Shown here piece by piece: positions 20,435 through 34,218 of a stretch of DNA of 61,450 bases. Source of the stretch: Propylenella binzhouense (GTDB lineage Bacteria > Pseudomonadota > Alphaproteobacteria > Rhizobiales > Afifellaceae); assembly GCF_009866965.1 (NCBI RefSeq), contig NZ_SPKJ01000014.1, positions 1-61,450 of the forward strand, read 5' to 3'. The translations under genes and the position numbers were made by a program. A model generated the notes under the pieces. It was not told the DNA's origin. It did not search any database and worked only from the letters and a program-made list of their open reading frames with translations. Position 1 is the stretch's first letter. The number at the start of each line of letters is the position of its first letter.

Positions 20435-21883
20435 TCATACCCCGGCGGGGATCGCGCCCCGCTCGACCGGCTTCGGCGCCGTCAGCGCCTTCCAGGAGGA
20501 GAGCGCCTGCGCGACCGCCGGGAACGGCTCGCGCTCGATGAAGCGGCCGCGGCCGGCCTCCGCCTCGAGCCGGCCCTCGTCATAGACGACGGTCCCGCGG
20601 TTCATCACGATGCGCGGCAGCCCGGTGACGCGGTAGCCCTCGAAGACGTTGTAGTCGATCACCGAGCGCTGGCCGGCGGCCGAGATCGTCTTCGTCGCCT
20701 CCGGGTCCCAGATCACGATGTCGGCGTCGGAGCCGACGGCGATCGTGCCCTTCCTCGGATAGACGTTCAGGATCTTGGCGATGTTCGTCGAGGTCGCGGC
20801 GACGAACTCGTTCATGGTCATCCGGCCGGTGCGCACGCCCGCCGTCCAGAGCACCGGCATCCGGTCCTCCAGCCCGCCCGTGCCGTTCGGGATCCGCGTG
20901 AAATCGCCGAGGCCCATCCGCTTCTGCTCGGTCGTGAAGGCGCAATGGTCGGTCGCCACCACCTGCAGGCTGCCCGAGGCGAGCCCGGCCCAGAGCGAAT
21001 CCTGGTTGCGCTTGTCGCGGAAGGGCGGCGACATGACCCGGCGCGCGGCGTGTTCCCAGTCCGGGTTGAAGTACTCCGCCTCGTCGAGGACGAGATGCTG
21101 GACGAGCGGCTCGCCATAGACCCGCTTGCCGAGCGCGCGGGCGCGCCGGATCGCCTCGTGGGCGGCCTCGCAGGAGACGTGGACGACATAGAGCGGCACG
21201 CCCGCCATGTCGGCGATCATGATGGCGCGGTTCGCCGCCTCGCCCTCGACCTCGGGCGGGCGGGAATAAGCATGGCCCTCGGGGCCGGTCGTGCCGGCCG
21301 CCATGTATTTCTGCTGGAGACGCGCGACGACGTCGCCGTTCTCGGCATGGACGAGGGGCAGCGCGCCGAGTTCGGCGCAGCGCAGGAACGACTGGTACAG
21401 CTCGTCGTCGTTCACCATCAGCGAGCCCTTGTAGGCCATGAAGTGCTTGAAGCTGTTGATGCCCCGCTTCACGACCTCCGCCATCTCGCGCCACACCTCC
21501 TCCGACCACCAGGTGATCGCCATGTGGAAGGAATAGTCGGCGGCGGCCTTGCCGGCCTTCTGGTGCCACTCGCCGAGCGCCTCGAGGAGCGACTGGCCGG
21601 GCGCCGGCAGGCAGAAATCGACGACCATGGTGGTGCCGCCGGCGAGCCCGGCGCTCGTGCCGGAGAGGAAGTCGTCGGCCGAGGTCGTGCCCATGAAGGG
21701 CATCTCGAGATGGGTATGCGGGTCGATCCCGCCCGGCATGACGTAGCAGCCGGTCGCGTCGATCACCTGCTCGCCCGCGAGGCCCGCCCCGATCGCCCGG
21801 ACCGCCTCGCCCTCCACCAGCACGTCGGCCTTGTAGGTGAGATCGGCGGTCACGATGGTCCCGCCCTTGATCAAGATAGACAT
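20435..21883 (-). CDS. hydA: Dihydropyrimidinase / D-hydantoinase
   Basis: 482 residues. The enzyme opens the ring of 5,6-dihydrouracil or dihydrothymine to N-carbamoyl-beta-amino acids, step two of the reductive pyrimidine pathway. The binuclear metal site is complete: His56 and His58 (DPHTHLEM), carboxylated Lys152 (FMAYKG), His179 (LVHAENGD), His235 (VVHVSC) and Asp312 (ATDHCAF). The ATG at 21883 gives the canonical start MSILIKGGTIVT; a longer upstream reading is rejected. It is last in the operon transaminase-amidohydrolase-hydA, 29 bp after the amidohydrolase gene. Confidence 0.95.
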   Translation of the reverse strand: MSILIKGGTIVTADLTYKADVLVEGEAVRAIGAGLAGEQVIDATGCYVMPGGIDPHTHLEMPFMGTTSADDFLSGTSAGLAGGTTMVVDFCLPAPGQSLLEALGEWHQKAGKAAADYSFHMAITWWSEEVWREMAEVVKRGINSFKHFMAYKGSLMVNDDELYQSFLRCAELGALPLVHAENGDVVARLQQKYMAAGTTGPEGHAYSRPPEVEGEAANRAIMIADMAGVPLYVVHVSCEAAHEAIRRARALGKRVYGEPLVQHLVLDEAEYFNPDWEHAARRVMSPPFRDKRNQDSLWAGLASGSLQVVATDHCAFTTEQKRMGLGDFTRIPNGTGGLEDRMPVLWTAGVRTGRMTMNEFVAATSTNIAKILNVYPRKGTIAVGSDADIVIWDPEATKTISAAGQRSVIDYNVFEGYRVTGLPRIVMNRGTVVYDEGRLEAEAGRGRFIEREPFPAVAQALSSWKALTAPKPVERGAIPAGV

Positions 21884-21912
21884 GTCACGCCCCCGCCGCT
21901 CGGGTCCCCGCC

Positions 21913-23160
21913 TTACGGGACGATGCCCGCCGTCTCCACCGCCGCATGGAAGAGCACGTTCGCCCCGGCGGTCGCCCATTCAGGATAGATGAGCTCGTCC
22001 TCGTTGTGGCTGAGCCCGTCGACGCACGGGCAGAACACCATCGCCGTCGGCGCCACCCGGTTGATCCAGCACGCGTCGTGGCCGGCGCCCGAGACGATGT
22101 CCCGGTGCGAGTAGCCGAGCCGCTCGGCGGCGTCCCGCACCGCCTTCACGCAGGCCGGATCGAAGGCGACCGGATCGAAATGGCCGACCTGCTCGATCTC
22201 GTGCGAAATCGCGAGCGCCTCGCAGATCGTCGCGACGCCGCCGCGGATGCGGGCGTCCATCTCGTCGAGGACGCGCTTGTCCGGCGAGCGGATGTCGATC
22301 GTGAAGACGGTCCGGCCGGGAATGATGTTGCGCGAGTTGGGATAGACCTCCATGTGCCCGATCGCGCCGACGGCATCGGGCTGGTAGTCCATCGCCACCT
22401 CGTGGACGAGCTCGGTGACCCGCGCCATGCCGAGCCCGGCGTTCCGCCGCTTCGGCATCGGGGTGGAGCCGGTGTGGCTCTCCTTGCCGGTGAGCGTCAC
22501 CTGCAGCCATTTGAGGCCCTGGCCGTGGGTCACGACGCCGATGTCGATCCCCTCGTCCTCGAGGATCGGCCCCTGCTCGATATGGAGCTCGAAGAGCGCG
22601 CGGATGGTACGCCCGCCGACCGGCGCGTCGCCCTTGAAGCCGATCCGCTCCAGCTCCGCGCCGAGCGTCTTGCCGGCGGCGTCGGTGCGGGCATAGGCCC
22701 AGTCGAGGTCGTGAACCCCGGCGAAGACGCCGGAGGCGAGCATGGCCGGCGCGAAGCGGGTGCCCTCCTCATCGGTCCAGTTCACCACCTCGATCGGATG
22801 GCGCGTCCTGATGCCGAGATCGTTGAGGGTGCGGACCACCTCGAGCGCGCCGAGCACCCCGAGCACGCCGTCATAGCGCCCGCCCGTCGGCTGCGTGTCG
22901 AGATGCGAGCCGATCATCACCGGCGGCAGGTCCGGCTCGGCGCCCGCGCGGCGGGCGAACATCGTCCCCATCCGGTCGACCGTCGTCGCCAGCCCGGCCT
23001 CGTCGCACCAGCGACGGAACAGCTTCCGCCCTTCCGCATCGGCGTCGGTGAGGGTCTGCCGGTTGTTGCCGCCGCGCACGCCCGGCCCGATCTCGGCCAT
23101 CGCGGCGATCGTGTCCCACAGCCGCTCGCCGTTGATCCGCAGGTTCGACTGAAGCGTCAC
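21913..23160 (-). CDS. N-carbamoyl-beta-alanine amidohydrolase (M20 hydantoinase/carbamoylase family)
   Basis: 415 residues. It hydrolyses the N-carbamoyl-beta-amino acid made by HydA to beta-alanine (or 3-aminoisobutyrate), CO2 and ammonia. Family motifs are GSHLDTQPTGGRYDG (metal His and Asp), TDEEGTRFAP (catalytic and metal Glu), FELHIEQGPILE and the late GAGHDACW and SHNEDE. The start is GTG at 23160 with AAGGAG upstream. Allantoate amidohydrolase and L-carbamoylase share this family; the operon position makes the pyrimidine role most likely (PydC/HyuC type). Confidence 0.92.
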   Translation of the reverse strand: MTLQSNLRINGERLWDTIAAMAEIGPGVRGGNNRQTLTDADAEGRKLFRRWCDEAGLATTVDRMGTMFARRAGAEPDLPPVMIGSHLDTQPTGGRYDGVLGVLGALEVVRTLNDLGIRTRHPIEVVNWTDEEGTRFAPAMLASGVFAGVHDLDWAYARTDAAGKTLGAELERIGFKGDAPVGGRTIRALFELHIEQGPILEDEGIDIGVVTHGQGLKWLQVTLTGKESHTGSTPMPKRRNAGLGMARVTELVHEVAMDYQPDAVGAIGHMEVYPNSRNIIPGRTVFTIDIRSPDKRVLDEMDARIRGGVATICEALAISHEIEQVGHFDPVAFDPACVKAVRDAAERLGYSHRDIVSGAGHDACWINRVAPTAMVFCPCVDGLSHNEDELIYPEWATAGANVLFHAAVETAGIVP

Positions 23161-23181: not shown

Positions 23182-24513
23182 TCAGTCGAGCTTGCCGATG
23201 ACGTCGCGCAGCGTCCCGACCAGCTCGTCGATCTCGCTCTTCTCGAAGATGAGCGGGGGCGAGATTGCGATGATGTCGCCGGTCGTGCGGATCATGATGC
23301 CGCGCTCAAAGGCCTCGATGAAGGCCGTGAAGGCGCGCTTCGTCGGGGCGCCCGGGATCGGCTCGAGCTCGACGGCGCCGACCATGCCGCAATTGCGGAT
23401 GTCGATGACGTGCGGCAGGCCGCGGAGATCGTGCAGCGCGTCGGCGAAATAGGATTCGAGCTCCGCGCCGCGCGTGAGCAGCCCTTCCTCCTGGTAGATG
23501 TCGAGCGTGGCGAGCCCGGCCGCGCAGGAGACCGGGTTCCCCGAATAGGTGTAGCCGTGGAAGAACTCGATGAGGTGCTCCGGGCCGTTCATGAAGGCCT
23601 CGTAGATCTCGTTCTTCACGAACACCGCGCCCATCGGCACGACGCCGTTCGTGACGCCCTTCGCCGTCGTCATGATGTCGGGCGTCACGCCGAAATAGTC
23701 CGCCCCGAAGGGCGTGCCAAGCCGGCCGAAGCCCGTGATCACCTCGTCGAAGATGAGCAGGATGCCGTGCCGGTCGCAGATCGCCCTCAGCCGCTCCAGA
23801 TAGCCCTTGGGCGGGAGCAGCACGCCGGTCGAGCCGGCGACCGGCTCCACGATCACCGCGGCGATCGTCGAAGCGTCGTGGAGGGCGACCAGCCGCTCCA
23901 GATCGTCGGCGAGCTCGGCGCCGTAGGCGGGCTGGCCGCGGGTGAAGGCGTTCCGCTCGATGTCGTGGGTGTGGCGGATGTGGTCGACGCCCGTGAGCAG
24001 CGTCCCGAACATCTTGCGGTTCGTGACGATGCCGCCGACCGAGATGCCGCCGAAATTGACGCCGTGATAGCCGCGCTCCCGGCCGATCAGGCGGAACCGG
24101 CTCCCCTCGCCCCGCACGCGATGATAGGCGAGCGCGATCTTGAGCGCGGTATCGACGGATTCGGAGCCGGAATTGGTGAAGAAGACGTGGTCGATGCCGG
24201 GCGGCGTCAGGGTGATGAGGCGGGCGGCGAGCTCGAACGCCTTGGGATGGCCCATCTGGAACGCCGGCGCGTAGTCGAGCTCGGTGAGCTGACGATGAAC
24301 CGCATCGGCGATCTGCCGGCGGCCGTGCCCGGCATTCACGCACCAGAGGCCGGACGTCCCGTCCAGCACCTCCCGCCCGTCGGCCGTGCGGTAGCGGGTG
24401 CCCTCGGCGGCCACCAGCATGCGCGGTTTCTGCTTGAACTGCCGGTTCGCTGAGAACGGCATCCAGAAGGCTTCGAGATTGTTGGTGACGCGAACGGCGG
24501 CGTCGGCGGACAT
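23182..24513 (-). CDS. Omega-amino acid:pyruvate aminotransferase (class III)
   Basis: 443 residues, the usual length of beta-alanine:pyruvate transaminases. Fold type I features: TNSGSESVDTALK (phosphate binding), RGYHGVNFGG, FDEVITGFGRLG (PLP Asp) and TTAKGVTNG (PLP Lys). It converts beta-alanine or 3-aminoisobutyrate to the semialdehyde after the amidohydrolase step. The ATG at 24513 has CGGAG seven bases away; open reading further upstream crosses the regulator promoter and is rejected. It is first in the operon, with the RutR-type operator 53 bp upstream of the start. Confidence 0.93.
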   Translation of the reverse strand: MSADAAVRVTNNLEAFWMPFSANRQFKQKPRMLVAAEGTRYRTADGREVLDGTSGLWCVNAGHGRRQIADAVHRQLTELDYAPAFQMGHPKAFELAARLITLTPPGIDHVFFTNSGSESVDTALKIALAYHRVRGEGSRFRLIGRERGYHGVNFGGISVGGIVTNRKMFGTLLTGVDHIRHTHDIERNAFTRGQPAYGAELADDLERLVALHDASTIAAVIVEPVAGSTGVLLPPKGYLERLRAICDRHGILLIFDEVITGFGRLGTPFGADYFGVTPDIMTTAKGVTNGVVPMGAVFVKNEIYEAFMNGPEHLIEFFHGYTYSGNPVSCAAGLATLDIYQEEGLLTRGAELESYFADALHDLRGLPHVIDIRNCGMVGAVELEPIPGAPTKRAFTAFIEAFERGIMIRTTGDIIAISPPLIFEKSEIDELVGTLRDVIGKLD

Positions 24514-24725: not shown

Positions 24726-25364
24726 ATGAGCATCGCCGAAGCGGCATCGGCCAAGCGCTCGCGGATCCAGCAGAAGAACCGCGGGGCGATCCTGGAGGCC
24801 GCGCTCGAAGTGTTCTCCGTGCACGGCTTCCGCGGCTCCACGATCGACCAGATCGCGGAGCGCGCCGGCATGTCGAAGCCGAACCTGCTCTATTATTTTC
24901 CGAGCAAGGAGGCGATCTACGTCTCCGTCCTGGAGCGGACGCTCGCCGAATGGCTGGCGCCGCTCGAGGCGCTCGATCCCGCCGGCGATCCGCTCGAGGA
25001 GATCGGGCGCTATGTCGCGGCCAAGCTGCGCATGGCGCACCGGAAGCCGGAAGCCTCGCGCCTCTTCGCGAACGAGATCCTGAGCGGGGCACCCGCGATC
25101 GCCGGCTTCCTGACCGGGCCGCTCAAGTCGCTCGTCGACGAGAAGGCCGCGGTCCTGCGCGGCTGGATGGACGCCGGCGCGCTCACCCCGATTGACCCGC
25201 ACCATCTGATCTTCATGATCTGGGCGGTGACGCAACATTACGCCGACTTCGACATTCAAGTGAGGGCCGTGCTCGGCCATCCGGCCGGGGACGACCGCCG
25301 TTTCGCCGATGCGGGACGGACGGTCGCCGCGGTGCTCTTCGAAGGGCTGCGCCCGCGCCCGTGA
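24726..25364 (+). CDS. rutR: RutR-like TetR-family regulator
   Basis: 212 residues. The N-terminal helix-turn-helix includes TIDQIAERAGMSKPNLLYYFPSKEAIY, close to RutR (NLLYYFPSKE). The C-terminal ligand domain has LFANEILSGAP, FMIWAVTQHYADFD and VAAVLFEGL, also RutR-like. RutR releases DNA on binding uracil or thymine. The gene is divergent from the transaminase-amidohydrolase-hydA operon with a matching operator between them, which strongly supports control of pyrimidine degradation. The ATG at 24726 is the only good start. Confidence 0.92.
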   Translation: MSIAEAASAKRSRIQQKNRGAILEAALEVFSVHGFRGSTIDQIAERAGMSKPNLLYYFPSKEAIYVSVLERTLAEWLAPLEALDPAGDPLEEIGRYVAAKLRMAHRKPEASRLFANEILSGAPAIAGFLTGPLKSLVDEKAAVLRGWMDAGALTPIDPHHLIFMIWAVTQHYADFDIQVRAVLGHPAGDDRRFADAGRTVAAVLFEGLRPRP

Positions 25365-25425: not shown

Positions 25426-26238
25426 ATGATCTCGGCTCGCAAGGCACTGACGACCACCGCCCTTCTCGCCGGCATTCTCGCCGGGCCGGCGGAAGCCGCC
25501 CAATGCGGCAACGACGCGAGCGGATTTCCGGCCTGGCTGCAGGCCTTCAAGGGCGAGGCGCGCGCGGCCGGGCTGTCGCGCTCGCTCTCCGCGCTCGACG
25601 GGCTCAGCTACGATGCCGGCGTGATCAGGCTCGACCGCTCGCAGAAGCCGTTCAAGATGAGCTACGAGGCCTTCGTGAAGCAGCGCCTCTCGTCGGGCAG
25701 GGTGTCGAACGGCAAGAAGAAGATGGCGCAGTACGCCGCCCTCCTCCGCCAGCTCGAGCAGCGCTACGGGGTACCGGGCTCCGTCATCATCGCGATCTGG
25801 GGCATGGAGACGGATTACGGCGCGGTCCGCGGCAGCAAGCACGCGATCCGCTCGCTCGCCACCCTCGCCTACGATTGCAGGCGCTCCGGCTTCTTCACCA
25901 ACGAGCTGCTGGCGGCGCTCACCATCGTGGAGCGCGGGCGGATGACGCCGCAGGAGATGGTCGGAGGCTGGGCGGGCGAGATCGGGCAGACCCAGTTCCT
26001 CGCCTCGAAATATTTGCAGTTCGCCGTCGACGGAAACGGCGACGGCCGCGCCGACGTGGTCGGCACGCCGGCCGACGTGCTCGCCTCCACCGCCAATTAC
26101 CTGAGCGCGCACGGCTGGCAGCGCGGCGCCGGCTACCAGCCCGGCGAGCCGAACTTCGCCGTCATCGCCGAGTGGAACAGCTCGTCGAACTACCAGCGCA
26201 CCATCGCGCGCTTCGCCGAGATCCTCGAGGGCGGCTGA
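25426..26238 (+). CDS. Lytic murein transglycosylase (SLT_2/MltB type), exported
   Basis: 270 residues. Signal peptide about 1-24 (cut near AEA-AQCG). The SLT_2 domain has the catalytic Glu in WGMETDYGA and the later motifs GWAGEIGQTQFLASKYLQ and DVLASTANYL. It cleaves peptidoglycan with 1,6-anhydro products. It is shorter than the roughly 400-residue MltB proteins and has no peptidoglycan-binding domain at the C-terminus. It follows the regulator by 61 bp on the same strand but has no functional link to pyrimidines; convergent with preA. Confidence 0.9.
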   Translation: MISARKALTTTALLAGILAGPAEAAQCGNDASGFPAWLQAFKGEARAAGLSRSLSALDGLSYDAGVIRLDRSQKPFKMSYEAFVKQRLSSGRVSNGKKKMAQYAALLRQLEQRYGVPGSVIIAIWGMETDYGAVRGSKHAIRSLATLAYDCRRSGFFTNELLAALTIVERGRMTPQEMVGGWAGEIGQTQFLASKYLQFAVDGNGDGRADVVGTPADVLASTANYLSAHGWQRGAGYQPGEPNFAVIAEWNSSSNYQRTIARFAEILEGG

Positions 26239-26244
26239 GCCGCC

Positions 26245-27555
26245 CTATTCCGCCGCCACCCGCGCCATCGGGTTGTTCGGATGGGTCGTCCAGTTGGCGT
26301 AGGCCGCCTCGACGGGAAGGCCGGTGCGGGGGTCGGTCGCTCCGGGCGGCAGCGCCTCCATGGTGATGCAGTTCTCGACCGGGCAGACCGAGACGCAGAG
26401 ATTGCAGCCGACGCACTCGGAATCGATCACCTCGAACTTCCGCACGCCCGCCACCGTCCGGGTGATCGCCTGGTGCGAGGTGTCCTCGCAGACGACGTGG
26501 CAGCGCCCGCACTTGATGCAGAGTTCCTGGTCGATCCGCGCCTTCGTGACATAGTTCAGGTTGAGATACTGCCAGTCCGTGACATTCGGGACGGCGAGGC
26601 CGACGAAATCGGAAACGCTTGTGTAGCCCTTCTCGTCCATCCATTGCGACAGGCCGGCGATCATCTCCTGCACGATCCGGAAGCCGTAGGTCATCGCGGC
26701 CGTGCAGACCTGGACGGTGCCGGCGCCGAGCGCCATGAACTCGGCCGCATCGCGCCAGGTGGTGATGCCGCCGATTGCCGAGAGCGGCATGCCGTTCGTC
26801 GCCGGATCGCGCGCGATCTCGGCCACCATGTTGAGCGCGATCGGCTTCACGGCCGGGCCGCAATAGCCGCCATGGCTCGCCTTGCCGTCGATCGTGGGCA
26901 CCGGCGCCATCCGGTCGAGGTCGACGCCCATCAGCGACGAGACCGTGTTGATGAGCGAGACGGCGTCCGCCCCGCCCTTCGCAGCCGCGCGCGCGGGATA
27001 GCGGATATCGGTGATGTTCGGCGTCAGCTTCACGATCACGGGCATGCGGGTGTGCGCCTTGCACCAGCGCGCCACCATCTCGATGTATTCCGGCACCTGG
27101 CCGACGGCGGAGCCCATGCCGCGCTCCGACATGCCGTGCGGGCAGCCGAAATTGAGCTCCACGCCGTCCGCGCCCGTCTCCTCGACGCGGGCGAGTATGT
27201 CGGCCCAGTTGCGCTCCTCGCAGGGCACCATCAGCGAGACGACGAGGGCGCGGTCGGGCCAGGCGCGCTTCACCTCCTTGATCTCGCGGAGGTTCACCTC
27301 GAGCGGCCGGTCGGTGATGAGCTCGATGTTGTTGAAGCCGAGCAGCCGGCGGTCCGGCCCGTGCACGGCGCCGTAGCGCGGGCCGTTCACGTTCACGATC
27401 GGCGGGTCCTCGCCGAGCGTCTTCCAGACGACGCCGCCCCAGCCCGCCTGGAAGGCGCGCACGACGTTGTAGGCCTTGTCCGTCGGCGGCGCGGAGGCGA
27501 GCCAGAACGGATTCGGCGACTTGATGCCGAGGAATTCGGTTGCGAGGTTCGCCAT
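26245..27555 (-). CDS. preA: NAD-dependent dihydropyrimidine dehydrogenase, catalytic subunit PreA
   Basis: 436 residues, the usual PreA length. The N-terminal dihydroorotate-dehydrogenase-like barrel binds FMN (NFGCPHGMSERGMGSAVGQ, VKLTPN, AIGGITTWRDAAEFMALGA). The C-terminal ferredoxin domain has two 4Fe-4S motifs: CIKCGRCHVVC and CVGCNLCVSVCPVENC. With PreT it reduces uracil and thymine to the dihydropyrimidines. It is the last gene of the preT-methyltransferase-preA operon, 10 bp after the methyltransferase gene. Confidence 0.96.
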   Translation of the reverse strand: MANLATEFLGIKSPNPFWLASAPPTDKAYNVVRAFQAGWGGVVWKTLGEDPPIVNVNGPRYGAVHGPDRRLLGFNNIELITDRPLEVNLREIKEVKRAWPDRALVVSLMVPCEERNWADILARVEETGADGVELNFGCPHGMSERGMGSAVGQVPEYIEMVARWCKAHTRMPVIVKLTPNITDIRYPARAAAKGGADAVSLINTVSSLMGVDLDRMAPVPTIDGKASHGGYCGPAVKPIALNMVAEIARDPATNGMPLSAIGGITTWRDAAEFMALGAGTVQVCTAAMTYGFRIVQEMIAGLSQWMDEKGYTSVSDFVGLAVPNVTDWQYLNLNYVTKARIDQELCIKCGRCHVVCEDTSHQAITRTVAGVRKFEVIDSECVGCNLCVSVCPVENCITMEALPPGATDPRTGLPVEAAYANWTTHPNNPMARVAAE

Positions 27556-27565
27556 GTGGGCCCCT

Positions 27566-28405
27566 TCAGGCTGACGCGGACCGGAAGATCATCTGGACGG
27601 GCGCGATGGTGCCGGCGCCGATCGCGGCGACCATGTTCGCCGTCTTCTGCGCCACGTTCGGCCCCATCAGGACGTGGAGGCCGAGCGGCGAGGCGGCGGC
27701 ATCCGCCGCCTGCGCCCGGATGCGGGCGAAGAAATCGAGCGCGATCGCGCCGCGGTTCTCCTCGCGCAGCAGCGCGAAGCCTGCCGCCTCCGCGCAGCCG
27801 CGATAGACCTCCGGCGGCTCGAGCGCCGAGAGATCGGCCGTTTCCGCCCACGGCACCGGAAAGGCGAGTTCGCCCGCGCCGGTGCGCATGACGTCGTAGA
27901 CCGCGAAGGTGCCGCCGGGCCTGAGCACCCGATGCGCCTCGCGGAAGAGCGCCGCCTTGTCGCGAATGTTCATGCCGACATGGAGGAGGAGCGCGAGATC
28001 GAAGCCCGCATCGGGGAGCGGCAGATCGGTGGCGCTCCCCACCTCGAAGCGCACGCGCTCCGCGACGCCGGACATCTCGCTCAGCGCCCGCGCCGTCTCC
28101 ACGAATTGCGGCGTGAGATCGACGCCCGTGACATGGCAGCCGCAGCGCAGCGCCACCGCGCGCGCCGGCCCGCCGATGCCGGACCCGATGTCGAGCACCT
28201 CGGTCCCGGGGCCGATCTCCAGATGCTCGAGGAGGTCGGCCGTCGCCTGCGCGCCGCCGATATGGAACTCGTCGACCGGCTTCAGGACCTCGGGCGGGAC
28301 GCGCGCCCCGGCGGCATAGCCCATCTCCGCCAGCGCCGCCCGGATCCGGTTGAGCACGTCATAGGCCGAATAATGGCGCGAGACGCCCGATTCCAGATCG
28401 CTCAC
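27566..28405 (-). CDS. Class I SAM-dependent methyltransferase inside the pre operon
   Basis: 279 residues from a GTG that overlaps the preT stop by 4 bp (GTGA), so it is translationally coupled. The Rossmann SAM site is VLDIGSGIGGPARAVA (motif I), VTGVDLT (acidic loop), LALLLHVGMNI and LRPGGTFAVYDVM. The resemblance is to UbiE/MenG-like and sarcosine/dimethylglycine methyltransferases. The N-terminal SRHYSAYDVLNRIRAAL fits that group. A methyltransferase between the two subunits of dihydropyrimidine dehydrogenase is not part of the textbook pathway, so its substrate is unknown. Confidence 0.88.
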   Translation of the reverse strand: MSDLESGVSRHYSAYDVLNRIRAALAEMGYAAGARVPPEVLKPVDEFHIGGAQATADLLEHLEIGPGTEVLDIGSGIGGPARAVALRCGCHVTGVDLTPQFVETARALSEMSGVAERVRFEVGSATDLPLPDAGFDLALLLHVGMNIRDKAALFREAHRVLRPGGTFAVYDVMRTGAGELAFPVPWAETADLSALEPPEVYRGCAEAAGFALLREENRGAIALDFFARIRAQAADAAASPLGLHVLMGPNVAQKTANMVAAIGAGTIAPVQMIFRSASA

Positions 28406-29769
28406 GGCGCGGCACCTCCCGTCAGGGACCGATGGATCGACTCGGCCGCCACCTTGCCGTCCTCGACGGCCGCCACCGTCAGGTCCTGGCCGCCGGCGAC
28501 GCAATCGCCGCCGGCCCAGATGCCGGGCGCGCTGGTGCGCCGCTCGGCATCCACGGCGATCCGCCCGCCCTCAAGCCGGATTCCGGCGGCGGCGCCGAGC
28601 GGCTCGGGGACGAAGGTCTGGCCGATCGCCTTGAACACCATGTCGACCGGGATGGTCACGACGGCGCCGGTCCCGACGAGCCGGCCGCCGGCAATTCGCG
28701 TCCGCTCCACCACGATCGCCTCGACCGCGCCGGACTGGCCGGCGATGATCTGGACCGGCTGCGCCCATTCCAGGATCGTCACGCCGCGCGTCTGCGCGAG
28801 CTCCTGCTCCCAGAGGCTCGCCTTCATGTCGGCGCGGCCGCGGCGATAGAGGATGGTGACCTCCTCGGCGCCGAGGAGCTTGGCCTGGACGGCGGCGTCG
28901 ATCGCCGTCATGCCGCCGCCGATCACGGCGACGCGCGGCGCGATCGGGACGGCCGAAGCGTCCTCGGCCTGGCGCAGCCGCGCGATCCATTCGACCGCGT
29001 CGGTGACCCCCGGCGCGGCCTCGCCCGGCGCGGCGAGCGCGTTCACGCCGGCAAGCCCCATGCCGAGGAACACGGCGTCGAAATCCTCGCCTAGCTCCGC
29101 CAGCGTGAAATCGCGCCCGAGCGCCATGCCGGGTTCGAGCGTGATGCCGCCGACGGAGAGGATGAAGTCGACCTCGCGCTGGGCGAAATCGTCGACGGTC
29201 TTGTAGGCGGCGATGCCGTATTCGTTGAGCCCGCCCGGGCGCGGACGGGCGTCGAACATCACCACCTCGTGGCCGCGGAGCGCGAGCCGGTGGGCGCAGG
29301 CAAGCCCGGCCGGGCCGGCGCCGACGACGGCGACCCGCCTGCCGGTCGGCGCGGCGCGCGCGAAGGGCTGCTCGCCAGCGAAGATCAGGTGGTCGGTCGC
29401 GTGGCGCTGGAGCATGCCGATCTTCACCGGCTTGCCCTCGGCCTCCATCCGCACGCAGGCTTCCTCGCAGAGCGTCTCGACCGGGCAGACCCGGCCGCAC
29501 ATGCCGCCGAGAATGTTCTCCGCGAAGATCGTCCGCGCCGCGCCCTTCGGATTGCCGGTCGCGATCTGGCGGATGAAGAGCGGGATGTCGATCGAGGTCG
29601 GGCAGGCCACCGTGCAGGGCGCGTCGTAGCAGAAATAGCAGCGGTCCGCCTCGACATGCGCCTCGTGCGCGCTCAGGGGAGGATGAAGCTCCCCGAATTC
29701 GATCCGACGGTCCTCGACCGGCCCGGAGGCCGGGCCGCCCCGGCCCGCTGACGATCTCTCGACGAGCAT
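28402..29769 (-). CDS. preT: NAD-dependent dihydropyrimidine dehydrogenase subunit PreT
   Basis: 455 residues. The N-terminal Fe-S domain (about 40-110) has CYFCYDAPCTVACPTSIDIP and GRVCPVETLCEEAC. Two nucleotide-binding folds follow: the FAD site VAVVGAGPAGLACAHRL and the NAD site VAVIGGGMTAIDAAVQAK. The end has GIWAGGDCV. It feeds electrons from NADH to PreA. It is first in the operon and shares a 230-bp divergent gap with a small membrane-protein gene; two CGGTCAA half-sites lie 80-106 bp upstream. Confidence 0.95.
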   Translation of the reverse strand: MLVERSSAGRGGPASGPVEDRRIEFGELHPPLSAHEAHVEADRCYFCYDAPCTVACPTSIDIPLFIRQIATGNPKGAARTIFAENILGGMCGRVCPVETLCEEACVRMEAEGKPVKIGMLQRHATDHLIFAGEQPFARAAPTGRRVAVVGAGPAGLACAHRLALRGHEVVMFDARPRPGGLNEYGIAAYKTVDDFAQREVDFILSVGGITLEPGMALGRDFTLAELGEDFDAVFLGMGLAGVNALAAPGEAAPGVTDAVEWIARLRQAEDASAVPIAPRVAVIGGGMTAIDAAVQAKLLGAEEVTILYRRGRADMKASLWEQELAQTRGVTILEWAQPVQIIAGQSGAVEAIVVERTRIAGGRLVGTGAVVTIPVDMVFKAIGQTFVPEPLGAAAGIRLEGGRIAVDAERRTSAPGIWAGGDCVAGGQDLTVAAVEDGKVAAESIHRSLTGGAAP

Positions 29770-29848
29770 CCGCTTCTCCCGCCCGCCTCGCCGCGTGCGC
29801 AGGATCGAGGCCGTTCCCCGGAGGGGAGGATGAGCGCGCCGGCGGCGC

Positions 29849-29875
29849 CGGTCAAATCTTTTATCGAGCGGTCAA
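29849..29875. promoter_or_regulatory. Paired CGGTCAA half-sites upstream of preT
   Basis: CGGTCAA occurs at 29849-29855 and 29869-29875, 20 bp apart and so on one helix face. Each differs from the RutR half-site TGGTCAA by one base; the second is followed on the complement by a degenerate second half. This could be how RutR reaches the preT operon, but the match is weaker than the site at 24566. Confidence 0.4.
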
Positions 29876-29950
29876 TTTTCGTGTCGCGAAGCGTCACGCG
29901 GCGTCGCCGTCGCGAAACAGGGGCGACACCCAATCTGACCCTTCCGCAAT

Positions 29951-29966
29951 CGGCCGGAAACGGCCG
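29951..29966 (+). other. Short hairpin with GAAA tetraloop
   Basis: CGGCCG (29951-29956), GAAA, CGGCCG (29961-29966): a 6-bp stem with a GNRA-type loop, 33 bp before the start of the miniprotein gene. It would be in its leader RNA. Function unknown; it may only be a GC-rich coincidence. Confidence 0.35.
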
Positions 29967-29999
29967 GCCTGTAGAACAAGCACGACAGGAGTTTCCGCC

Positions 30000-30098
30000 A
30001 TGCTTCGCTATTTCGCACTCCGCACCGCCGGCTTCCTCTCGCTGACCACGCTCTCGGTCCTCGTGCTGGCGCTGCCTTATATCGTCGAAGGTTTGTGA
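30000..30098 (+). CDS. 32-residue membrane miniprotein
   Basis: The frame begins MLRYFALRTAG and has a single hydrophobic helix (about 10-28) with a short acidic end (IVEGL). AGGAG lies eight bases before the ATG, a good ribosome-binding site. Too short for a domain assignment. It is divergent from preT and lies 131 bp upstream of the Trp-repeat metalloprotease gene on the same strand; whether the two are cotranscribed is not clear. Small single-helix proteins of this kind often regulate or stabilise membrane complexes. Confidence 0.6.
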   Translation: MLRYFALRTAGFLSLTTLSVLVLALPYIVEGL

Positions 30099-30229: not shown

Positions 30230-31714
30230 ATGGGATATGCAGCCTATGGCGTGAAGTGGGGAGACGATCCGGTCTTCGGAACCGCGGGCGGGACGGTCAC
30301 CTACAGCTTCGCCAGCGCGTGGAGCGGCACGAGCTACTACGATTTCGACGCGCAGCTCACCGCCGAATACCAAGCGGTCATCGCCGCCGCCTTCGCCGAA
30401 TGGGGCTATTACGGGGACATCGAGTTCGCGGCGGTCTCCGATTCCCTGACCGTCGACATCCGGATCGGCTGGGATGCCCTGGACGGCGTCGGCGGCACGC
30501 TGGCGGAGACGACCTTCTCCTACGACTTCACGGGCACGATCCTCTACGTCGAGATCGCCTTCGATTCGGCGGAACCCTGGGTGCCGACCAGCGAAGAGGT
30601 GAAGTTCGGCACGATCAGCTTCGAGGCCGTCGCCCTGCACGAGATCGGCCACGCGCTCGGCCTCGACCATTACTGGGCCGAGCCTTCGATCATGGATCCC
30701 TACTACAATGCGGTGGTCCTCGACCTGACGGCGAGCGACATCGAGGGCATCCAGGCGATCTACGGCGCGGAGCAGCACTGGGCCTGGGCCTATGGCTGGC
30801 ACCTCGGCTGGAACTACGGCTGGCACATCGACTGGGCCTATGGCGGCCATTACGAATACCATTACGGCTGGCACTGGAGCTGGGGCCACGGCTGGCACGA
30901 TGCCTGGGCCTATGGCTGGACCTATGGCTGGCAGCACGGCTGGTACACGGCCTGGTCCTACGGCTGGGACTTCAACTGGGCCTATGGCTGGTACGTCTAT
31001 CCGGCGCAGAGCTGGGCCTATGGCTGGGACTACGGCGGCCACTGGACCTGGGATCCCGGCAGCTGGAGCCTCGCGACCGGCTGGCATTCAAGCTGGACCT
31101 TCCACTGGTCGTGGGCCTGGGCCTATGGCTGGCACGGCGACTGGTCCTACGGCTGGTCCACCGACTGGGCCTATGGCTGGTACACCTACGGGTTTTACGG
31201 CTGGGACTTCGACTGGGCCTACGGCTGGTACCTTCCGGCTCCGGGCTCCTGGGCCTATGGCTGGCACGGCACGTGGAGCTACGGCTGGTCGACCGACTGG
31301 GCCTATGGCTGGCACACCTACTGGTTCTACGGCTGGGACTTCGACTGGGCCTACGGCTGGTATCTCTATCCCGCTCCGTCCTGGTCCTATGCCTGGGAAT
31401 ATGGCTGGTACTGGAGCTGGGGCGGCGGCGGCTGGGCCTGGACGATCGGCTGGACCTATGGCTGGCACCTCGACTGGACCTGGGCCTGGGGCTACGGCTG
31501 GAACGGCTGGTGGTCCTACGGCTGGTCGACGGACTGGTACTACGGCTGGCACCTCGGCTGGGCGCAGGGCTGGACGATCCAGCCGGCCTATGGCTGGTAC
31601 ATCGACTGGGACTACGGCTCCTACTGGACCTGGGCATGGGGCTGGTACGCGCAGTGGAGCGCGGGCTGGTACACGAGCTGGGAATATGGCTGGTACCAGT
31701 ACTGGACGCCGTGA
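30230..31714 (+). CDS. Matrixin-like zinc metalloprotease with a C-terminal Trp/Tyr/Gly tetrad-repeat domain
   Basis: 494 residues. Residues 1-180 are an M10/matrixin-type domain: the start resembles serralysins (YGVKWG...VTYSF), the zinc site is HEIGHALGLDH (His137, Glu138, His141, His147) and the Met-turn is SIMDP (Met155). Residues 184-494 are a low-complexity repeat with 77 Trp in 311 residues by hand count. Trp falls at nearly every fourth position, and the most regular unit is eight residues, W-[A/S]-Y-G-W-x-x-x. There is no RTX motif (GGxGxD), signal peptide or transmembrane helix. The ATG at 30230 has only a weak ribosome-binding site. The frame stays open back to 30122 without another ATG, so a non-standard upstream start is possible. 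I recognise no described family for the repeat domain. Binding of glycan, lipid or a surface is conjecture. Confidence 0.85.
   Translation: MGYAAYGVKWGDDPVFGTAGGTVTYSFASAWSGTSYYDFDAQLTAEYQAVIAAAFAEWGYYGDIEFAAVSDSLTVDIRIGWDALDGVGGTLAETTFSYDFTGTILYVEIAFDSAEPWVPTSEEVKFGTISFEAVALHEIGHALGLDHYWAEPSIMDPYYNAVVLDLTASDIEGIQAIYGAEQHWAWAYGWHLGWNYGWHIDWAYGGHYEYHYGWHWSWGHGWHDAWAYGWTYGWQHGWYTAWSYGWDFNWAYGWYVYPAQSWAYGWDYGGHWTWDPGSWSLATGWHSSWTFHWSWAWAYGWHGDWSYGWSTDWAYGWYTYGFYGWDFDWAYGWYLPAPGSWAYGWHGTWSYGWSTDWAYGWHTYWFYGWDFDWAYGWYLYPAPSWSYAWEYGWYWSWGGGGWAWTIGWTYGWHLDWTWAWGYGWNGWWSYGWSTDWYYGWHLGWAQGWTIQPAYGWYIDWDYGSYWTWAWGWYAQWSAGWYTSWEYGWYQYWTP
30779..31711 (+). repeat. Degenerate 12/24-bp coding repeat for the Trp-rich domain
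   Basis: At DNA level the array is built on GGCTGG and TGGGCC/TGGTCC cores every 12 bp, with the commonest long word GCCTATGGCTGG. Tyr codons alternate TAT and TAC, so the copies are partly diverged and under amino-acid selection. Phase shifts of the Trp tetrad occur near residues 275-285 and 398-404, marking junctions between blocks. Confidence 0.8.
31130..31393 (+). repeat. 132-bp tandem duplication within the Trp-repeat domain
   Basis: 31130-31261 (residues 301-344) and 31262-31393 (residues 345-388) encode nearly the same 44-residue block, each starting WHG(D/T)WSYGWSTDWAYGW and containing FYGWDFDWAYGWYL. A partial third copy precedes them around residues 239-266. It shows the domain grows by duplication of a larger module. 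Confidence 0.8.
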
Positions 31715-31717
31715 GGC

Positions 31718-33178
31718 TCAGCGGAAGGCCGGCTCGTCGAAGCCCCTCAGCTTGCGGGAATGCAGCCGGTCGACGCCTTCCTCGCGCAGGCGCCGCATCG
31801 TCTCGAGCCCGACCATCAGGTGCTGGCGGACGCGCTCGCGGTAGAACGCGTTCGCCACGCCGCCGAGCTTCAGCTCGCCATGGAGCGGCTTGTCGGAAAC
31901 GCAGAGGAGCGTGCCGTAGGGCACCCGGAAGCGCAGGCCGTTAGCGGCGACCGTCGCCGATTCCATGTCGACCGCGATGGCCCGGCTGAGATTGAGCCGC
32001 GCGAAGAGCTCGTCGAAGCGCAGCTCCCAGTTCCGGTTGTCGGTGGTGGCGACGGTCCCCGTCCTCAGCCGCGTCTTGAGATCCTGGCCGCGCAGGCCCG
32101 TGACCGACGCCGTCGCATCCTGGAGCGCGACCTGCACCTCCGCGATCGGCGGCACCGGCACCCAGACCGGCAGGTCCTGATCGAGCACGTGGTCGTCGCG
32201 GACATAGCCGTGGGCGAGCACGTAGTCGCCGAGGAGCTGGCTCCGCCTCAGCCCCGCGCAATGGCCGAGCATGAGCCAGCAATGCGGCCGCAGGACAGCC
32301 AGATGGTCCGTTATCGTCTTCGCGTTGCTCGGCCCGACGCCGATATTGATGAGCGTGATGCCGTCGCTCGCCTCGCGCTTCAGGTGATAGGCGGGCATCT
32401 GCGGCAGGTAGCGGGGCGTCTCCTGGCCCGGCCCGCCCGCGGCGCGCGGACTGGGCGTCACGACGTTGCCGGGCTCCACGAACCCGACATAGCCGTCGCG
32501 GCCGACCTGCTCGTGCCCGAAGGCGACGAACGCGTCGACATAGCGCTGGTAGTTCGTCAGCAGCACGAAGCTCTGGAAGTGCTCAACCTTGGTGCCGGTA
32601 TAGTGCTCGAGCCGGGCGAGCGAATAGTCGACGCGCTCGGCCTCGAACAGCGCGAGCGGCCTCGGCTCGCCGTCGCGCCGCTGCAGCGTTCCGTTCGCGA
32701 TCGAATCGTCGGTGGCGCTGAGATCCGGCAGCGCGAAGCATTCCTGCAGCGCGCGCACGTCCTCCTCGCTGACGTCCGTGACGCTCTCCTCGAGCACGAA
32801 GGGAAGCGGGATCTGCCGCCGGCCCTCCCCGACATAGACCGGCACGCCGTGATGCCTGAGGAGGAGCTCGATCTGCTCCCGGTAGTAGCGGGCGAAGAGC
32901 GACGGACGGGTGAGCGTGGTGCCGTAATCGCCCGGCTCGAGGAGGACGCCGTAGGAGAGGCGCGCATCGACGTGGAGCTCCGCCCTGGCGACAGAGAGCC
33001 CGAGATAGGGATAGGGCGCATCGACCGGACAGGGGCCCGGCACGCGCCGGGCGGCGAAGGCGTCGAGGATCGCCGAAAGGCTGCGCTCATAGATCTCCGA
33101 AATGCGCGCGAGCGCCGCGTCGGCGTCCGTGAAGGGCTGAAGGTCGCGCGCCGGATGTCCGGCGCAGAGGCCGCTCAT
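31718..33178 (-). CDS. amn: AMP nucleosidase
   Basis: 486 residues. Cleaves AMP to adenine and ribose 5-phosphate. The N-terminal Amn-type domain (about 10-190) contains [22 protein letters not shown]; the C-terminal nucleoside-phosphorylase-fold domain (about 265-470) has [28 protein letters not shown] and the [12 protein letters not shown] motif used for the ribose. Length and both domains match enterobacterial and rhizobial Amn. The ATG at 33178 overlaps the guaC stop by 4 bp (ATGA), so the two form a purine-salvage operon. Convergent with the Trp-repeat protease gene 3 bp away. Confidence 0.95.
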
Positions 33179-34218
33179 CCGCCGAACACCGTGTTCAACT
33201 GGCTCCCGACGAGCACGAAGGTCGTCCGTTTCGGCACCTCCTTGAGCTTGCGCGCGCCGATATAGGTCATCATGCTGCGCACGCCGCCCATGATCTCCTG
33301 CATCGTGTCGGCCACCGGGCCGCGATAGGGCACTTCGACCGTCTTGCCTTCCGAGGCCCGGTAATGGGCGACCCCGCCGGAATGCTTGTTCATCGCGGTG
33401 TCGGAGGACATGCCGTAGAAGGTCATGCCGACGGGCACGCGCTCGCCGTCACGCTCCTCGTAGCGGATGTCGCCCTCGCATTCGTCGTGTCCGGCGAGCA
33501 TGCCGCCGAGCATCACGAAATCCGCGCCCGCCCCGTAGGCCTTGGCGACGTCGCCCGGCACCGTGCAGCCGCCGTCGGCGCAGACATGGCCGCCGAGCCC
33601 GTGTGCCGCATCGGCGCATTCGATGATCGCCGAGAGCTGCGGATAGCCGACGCCGGTCATCTTGCGCGTGGTGCAGACCGAGCCCGGCCCGATGCCGACC
33701 TTCACGATGTCGGCGCCGGCGAGCACGAGCTGCTCCGTCATGTCGCCGGTCACCACGTTGCCGGCCATCACCACCGCCTGCGGGTGCTCGGCGCGGATCT
33801 CGGCGACGAGCTCCACGAACTTCTCGGTGTAGCCGTTGGCGACATCGAGGCAGATCATCCGGATCGGCACCCGCCCGTCGACGCGGCGGAGCTTCTCGCG
33901 ATCGCTCTCGGTGGTCCCGAGCGAGTAGAAGGCGCCGCGCGAACCGTCCTCCTCGAAGAAGGCGGCGAGATCGTCCTCCGAATAGTGCTTGTGGAGCGCC
34001 ACCAGCGCGCCGAAGCCGGCAAGCGCCCGGGCCATCGCGAAGGTGCCCGTCACGTCCATGTTCGCGGCGATGAGCGGGAACCCCGTCCATTCGTTCCCGG
34101 CATGCCGGAAGCGGAGCGTGCGGTCGACGTCCACCTCGCTCCGGCTGCCGAGCGTCGAGCGCTTGGGCCGGATCAGGACGTCCTTGAAGTCGAGCTTCAG
34201 ATCGCTTTCGATACGCAT
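33175..34218 (-). CDS. guaC: GMP reductase
   Basis: 347 residues, the length of bacterial GuaC. Converts GMP to IMP with NADPH. TIM-barrel landmarks: [25 protein letters not shown] and the catalytic Cys loop [18 protein letters not shown]. The GMP-site segment [33 protein letters not shown] and [10 protein letters not shown] follow. No CBS domains, which separates it from IMP dehydrogenase. It heads the operon with amn; the promoter would be in the 103-bp gap to the cytochrome gene. Confidence 0.96.

Follow-up and report, generated by a model that had tools for sequence, protein, structure and literature searches.

A Probable Accessory Methyltransferase Gene Recurring Between preT and preA in Alphaproteobacteria

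Introduction

The NAD-dependent dihydropyrimidine dehydrogenase, PreTA, is a two-subunit enzyme, and both of its subunits are encoded in the window analyzed here (the whole stretch of 61,450 nucleotides from Propylenella binzhouense), where a gene for a methyltransferase is flanked by preT on one side and preA on the other. One may ask what a third protein is doing inside the operon of a two-subunit enzyme: is it an overlooked component of PreTA, an enzyme acting on the products of the same pathway, or an extra gene that is merely lodged there? An initial sequence-only reading of the locus took the strict coupling of the three genes as a sign of a partner or a missing step of PreTA.

Anatomy of the Locus

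The features of the pyrimidine locus, with the evidence for each, are as follows:

20435..21979, minus strand: dihydropyrimidinase (TIGR02033, 622.6 bits, above the cut-off of 393)
21913..23160, minus strand: hydantoinase/carbamoylase-family amidase (TIGR01879, 394 bits, above 204; NF006769, 683 bits, above 452)
23182..24513, minus strand: omega-aminotransferase AptA (NF052567, 761 bits, above 500)
24726..25364, plus strand: RutR-like TetR regulator of pyrimidine use (NF011584, 237.4 bits, above 230)
26245..27555, minus strand: preA, catalytic subunit of dihydropyrimidine dehydrogenase (NCBIfam NF006183 (PreA), 1.3e-219, 729 bits against a cut-off of 335)
27556..27565, minus strand: 10-nt spacer ahead of preA, opening with the Shine-Dalgarno-like AGGGG (sequence)
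27566..28405, minus strand: class I SAM-dependent methyltransferase, 279 aa, GTG start (Methyltransf_11, 1e-22; AlphaFold pLDDT 92)
28402..28405, minus strand: GTGA overlap, the methyltransferase start on the preT stop codon (sequence)
28402..29769, minus strand: preT, NAD(P)H/FAD subunit of dihydropyrimidine dehydrogenase (Pfam Fer4_20, 6e-35; Pyr_redox_2, 9e-35; adjoins preA in relatives)

The preT product contains the DPD domain II (PF14691) and pyridine nucleotide-disulphide oxidoreductase domains (Pfam). The terminus of preT reads ...GCGCCGTGA, and the GTG of the methyltransferase gene is formed by the first three bases of GTGA, giving a 4-nt overlap with the preT stop (28405-28402), with a GGGAGG that ends 9 nt upstream; the ATG of preA follows the methyltransferase stop by 10 nt, and the three genes are contiguous on the same strand (minus). 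The two positional claims of the sequence-only reading, a start directly on the preT stop codon and a preA gene 10 nt downstream, were thus both borne out. The presence nearby of the RutR-like regulator (which scores 254 bits with TIGR03613, below the cut-off of 368), the AptA-type aminotransferase, the amidase, which we infer to carry out the N-carbamoyl-beta-alanine step, and the dihydropyrimidinase, whose true start may lie downstream since the profile match begins at residue 35, marks the region as a cluster of reductive pyrimidine catabolism. The GC3 of the methyltransferase gene is 0.90, as compared to 0.89-0.94 in seven neighbours, so that its composition is native and shows no sign of recent arrival. 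No promoter-like sites were found in 26000-30000, and four terminator-like sites were found there (1.3 in shuffles, sd 1.2), among them a weak one in the methyltransferase gene and one in preT.

Two other places in the window were also noted. A 494-aa protein with a matrixin domain (Peptidase_M10, 4e-22; HEIGHALGLDH) is encoded at 30230-31714 (plus strand), and its domain is followed by about 300 residues in short repeats (24% Trp, 16% Gly and 15% Tyr), with 24 YGW triplets, 74 Trp among the last 305 letters and DNA repeats of 24 and 132 bp; the repeat part was matched by no Pfam model. At 31718-34218 (minus strand), beside the pyrimidine cluster, lies an AMP nucleosidase-like gene (AMNp_N), which overlaps by 4 nt with a gene of the IMPDH/GMP reductase family.

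Distribution of the Methyltransferase Gene at the preT-preA Junction

The frequency of the arrangement was established in two genome samples. For family f73, the family of genome G311, 150 of the 165 genomes with preA and 150 of the 164 with preT were taken, of which 140 were in both sets and 139 were measurable, and the methyltransferase gene was found in 16 of these 139 pairs (among the matches listed). In the taxonomic order of the window genome it was found in 2 of 74 pairs. A component of PreTA is expected in most genomes with preT and preA; however, the gene is held by only 18 of the 213 co-located pairs (f73 pairs from the matches listed), and the other 195, unlike the window, are without an intervening methyltransferase of this kind. 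In a class-wide sample of 289 genomes, 48 with preA and 47 with a methyltransferase match, the two genes adjoin only in the window genome and in G311, as judged from the listed coordinates compared by eye, while a genome collection yielded 17 loci, 7 in the order preT-methyltransferase-preA and 10 not. With the named loci included, 23 distinct junctions of this arrangement were counted (L055 is the same place as L066, and L050 the same as L064; one of each was kept). Among loci L064-L160 a strong junction match (E 1e-55 or better) is confined to L064-L079, with a non-junction methyltransferase copy in L080 and a weak match (3e-6) in L098. The conservation of gene order was therefore borne out in part: the arrangement is a minority one, yet it recurs in two taxonomic orders with methyltransferases of a single clade (see below), and thus it is not strain-specific at this spot. 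One of the records, L050/G351, is titled Oceanobacillus sp. HTM 045 (Bacillota), and it falls in the alphaproteobacterial f73 by genome search and by its preT and preA; the record is probably mislabelled.

Does the tight coupling itself argue for a dedicated third component, or a missing step, of PreTA? Spacing is tight in most of the 23 loci, and the 4-nt overlap in the window would fit such a part. However, among the junction methyltransferases the exact overlap is the window's only, the others being tightly spaced (starts are approximate), and a start at -4 relative to the preT stop is likewise seen for at least nine ORFs from different families and genomes, so that the overlap carries little information on function and is no sign of partnership. 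Given also the 195 pairs that do without the gene, and the scattered presence described below, a third component is very unlikely.

Other Genes in the Same Slot

The preT-preA gap is shorter than 150 nt in 150 of the 213 pairs and at least 150 nt in 63 (50 of 139 in f73 and 13 of 74 in the order sample; f73 pairs from the matches listed). Besides the methyltransferase, the fetched junctions carry VTT/DedA genes (in nine), glyoxalase-like genes (in six, one group, plus singles), Fpg-like genes (four, one a tail fragment), glycosyltransferases (three), DUF1428 genes (three plus one), GFA genes (two) and singletons. Six junctions (L107, L115, L117, L125, L126 and L127) hold an unnamed family of 113-177 aa, of which the sole member scanned (L127, 172 aa) gave no Pfam match. 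Cargo was identified by Pfam on ten representatives and the remaining cluster members were named by similarity; the VTT/DedA-like gene of L118, the Fpg-like gene of L124 and the glyoxalase-like gene of L140 are named by resemblance. The calls of junction genes, made by GC-frame score, are approximate; L095, L138, L142 and L143 have similar ORFs that are possibly non-coding, and this calling revealed no convincing gene in the junctions of L101-L103. The methyltransferase itself shares 7 of its 23 junctions with an additional gene, which is glyoxalase-, GFA-, DUF1428- or DedA-like or a second methyltransferase.

The junction of sucC and sucD was used as a control. In f73 its gap is at least 300 nt in 23 of 35 TCA-type copies (typed by length), reaching 2955 nt, as compared to 46 of 139 preT-preA gaps, and in 0 of 15 of the other sucCD copies. 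In Roseobacters, variable and poorly conserved genes were reported to be inserted in sucCD and sdhCDAB, and two of these insertions were shown to be co-transcribed (PMC3305630). Taken together with the control, this indicates that interrupted subunit operons are ordinary in this group. What is observed at preT-preA, namely variable presence between conserved subunit genes and other genes in the same slot, is the pattern of an inserted accessory gene.

The Methyltransferase Protein

The methyltransferase of the window passes Pfam Methyltransf_11 (81 bits) and several general methyltransferase models, and the curated cut-off was reached by none of the best 25 of the 41 NCBIfam models matched. 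Its earlier description as UbiE-like stands at the level of the domain (PF01209, 39 bits, cut-off 20), but does not extend to the curated UbiE/MenG (COQ5) models, which are far under their cut-offs (TIGR01934, 53 bits vs. 158; NF001244, 45 vs. 216). Two other identities were rejected in the same way, sarcosine/dimethylglycine N-methyltransferase (NF041675, 59 bits vs. 550) and the arsenite methyltransferase ArsM (NF008823, 68 bits vs. 263). A phosphoethanolamine N-methyltransferase was rejected on its residues, since H142 and N146 stand where domain 2 of AtPMT2 has an Asp and a His, which we take to be the catalytic pair; all 83 rows counted have N146, and H142 is found in every one of the 26 clade rows and in 52 of the 57 other rows. 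The AlphaFold model, made from a 16-sequence alignment, has a pLDDT of 92, and the solved relatives by sequence or fold include MitM, RebM/AtmM, TleD, SpnF, a geranyl diphosphate C-methyltransferase (GPP) and phosphoethanolamine methyltransferases. Six residues (H11, Y12, H48, N146, W186 and S193) do not vary among 26 clade sequences and 57 others; the second Amaricoccus-type copy, L053_1, which is outside this count, is without H11, and the first copy of L053 was excluded from the signature and congruence tests.

For five methyltransferase pairs dN/dS is 0.11-0.23, four of the five being near saturation (dS 1.2-1.4), and in the least diverged genome pair the value for preA is 0.18 as compared to 0.13 for its methyltransferase. 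These values, the domain matches and the confident fold model point to a maintained enzyme; judged from its sequence, the gene is intact and under purifying selection, not random debris. A neutral passenger, trapped in the operon and heading for loss, would agree with the many unrelated genes found in the slot and with the scattered presence, but the low dN/dS, the intact motifs, the confident fold and the restriction of the slot to one clade of methyltransferases instead of random ones make it improbable in the extreme.

Phylogeny of the Methyltransferase and Its Flanking Genes

In a tree of 84 methyltransferases (60 non-junction rows were used, not every hit, and the short weak matches L062 and L063 were dropped) all 24 junction copies, from the 23 junctions, lie within one clade of 27 with a support of 100/96. 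With 24 of 27 members at the junction, the clade prefers the preT-preA slot. The three other members come from Microvirga, Alsobacter and a Rhodobacteraceae MAG. In Alsobacter the methyltransferase copy lies elsewhere and the preT-preA junction is tight. Microvirga BT688 has a copy that is 73% identical, and preA was found neither in this genome (E 1e-60) nor in the MAG; as the Microvirga genome has draft status, the absence of preA there is no proof. A close copy kept where no preA was found nevertheless speaks against the partner reading.

The presence of the gene was mapped on a preT+preA tree of 103 loci, 23 with the gene and 80 without, the latter being a selection in which long gaps are over-represented. 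Presence needs 21 changes, of which at least 18-19 are forced, and the shuffled mean is 21.0; this counts against the gene being a part of PreTA. Among the 23 carriers, methyltransferase distances correlate with those of preT+preA at rho -0.12, as compared to +0.52 for preA against preT, and the methyltransferase tree has 1 of 20 splits in common with preT+preA, as compared to 4 of 20 for preA and preT, which again counts against a third component. The methyltransferase alignment is rejected on the preA and preT trees with deltaL of 581-594, and their alignments on the methyltransferase tree with 430-471. However, preA and preT also reject each other's tree (deltaL 306 and 166) and share only those four splits, so this pair is an imperfect control, and the methyltransferase conflict is the larger one.

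How could such a conflict arise? Either the gene came back to this slot several times, or two ancient tandem copies were lost unevenly among lineages. It is conceivable, although unlikely, that the slot was repeatedly refilled by one mobile clade, independently of the flanks, since co-expression with pyrimidine catabolism was selected; the chief rival account of the tree conflict is the ancestral tandem pair and its uneven loss, and in Amaricoccus two methyltransferase copies are still present. Co-transfer with the flanks was rejected: preT and preA windows correlate with methyltransferase distances at -0.16 to +0.20, which gives no indication that a short flank was shared. A plasmid route was likewise rejected: the methyltransferase is matched by 16 plasmid records (E 1e-30) and preA by 50 (E 1e-100), and among the records listed (40 of the 50 for preA) both are found only in Tistrella, about 415 kb apart. 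In phages there was no methyltransferase match at E 1e-10.

Role of the Methyltransferase

The copies outside the junction have no common neighbourhood: around the 60 non-junction copies no family was found in more than four loci (within 4 kb, GC-frame gene calls). Since 57 relatives in such unrelated contexts also have the six invariant residues, pyrimidine specificity of the core chemistry is improbable, and the sequence comparison suggests that this chemistry is common to the wider family; this, too, argues against a partner of PreTA. For the junction clade, the substrate may be pyrimidine-derived. The enzyme may then act on a molecule from pyrimidine catabolism, being useful there and not needed by PreTA, with N-methylation of beta-alanine or beta-aminoisobutyrate, or S-methylation of thiopyrimidines from tRNA turnover, as guessed reactions. 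Such a pathway-linked role is a possibility, if not a likely one. It is favored by the near confinement of the clade to the junction in two taxonomic orders, by the complete reductive pyrimidine cluster around the window copy and by fold relatives that include phosphoethanolamine and putative sarcosine/dimethylglycine methyltransferases; it is disfavored by the copy kept where no preA was found, by the invariant residues common to relatives elsewhere and by the low score with the sarcosine/dimethylglycine model.

The explanation that we favor, and consider probable, is an accessory small-molecule methyltransferase, faithful to the preT-preA slot and dispensable to PreTA, neither its subunit nor a required step. 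In the proposed mechanism an intact methyltransferase of the RebM/MitM/phosphoethanolamine-methyltransferase fold class, lodged as an accessory gene at the junction, would be expressed as preT-methyltransferase-preA, co-transcription being suggested by the spacing, and would use SAM on a small nucleophilic metabolite. The operon would supply position, in that the gene would be expressed together with those of pyrimidine catabolism at a site where additional genes are tolerated, and PreTA would presumably do without the methyltransferase. Genomic comparison thus suggests that the coupling reflects an optional extra gene recurring in the slot and not a missing third enzyme part. Against this accessory role it has to be said that a purely general function fails to explain why 24 of 27 clade members lie at the junction.

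In the literature no account of the preT-methyltransferase-preA order was found by a listing-level search, the scope of which mostly excluded subscription papers, and a search of the same level on beta-alanine betaine and uracil gave nothing on this order. If repeated refilling of the slot were true, Alphaproteobacteria would methylate some metabolite derived from pyrimidines in a way that has so far gone unrecognised, and the operon would be an example of horizontal exchange that keeps to one position. Since this uncharacterised methyltransferase clade is so faithful to one operon slot, looking for its substrate is worthwhile. The locus also holds a caution: strict operon coupling alone is a poor guide to function, because in these bacteria unrelated genes often come between the subunit genes of one enzyme, and some of them likewise overlap the stop codon ahead of them.

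Comparison with Known Systems

Among characterized enzymes, RebM, AtmM, MitM, TleD and SpnF are among the best sequence and fold matches of the window methyltransferase (24-26% identity). However, the natural-product methyltransferases RebM, AtmM, MitM and TleD, as well as SpnF, act on other substrates, and no biosynthetic cluster was noticed at the window locus. The phosphoethanolamine N-methyltransferases PfPMT, AtPMT and HcPMT resemble it in fold over nearly the full length (Z 24-28), but differ in sequence (17-23% identity) and in the replaced Asp/His pair of AtPMT2. With regard to gene arrangement, the closest parallel is provided by the Roseobacter sucCD and sdhCDAB operons, where extra, strain-variable genes likewise lie between subunit genes and are co-transcribed (PMC3305630). 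While those insertions are described there as poorly conserved, the methyltransferase at preT-preA represents one clade at one junction, in two taxonomic orders and under purifying selection.
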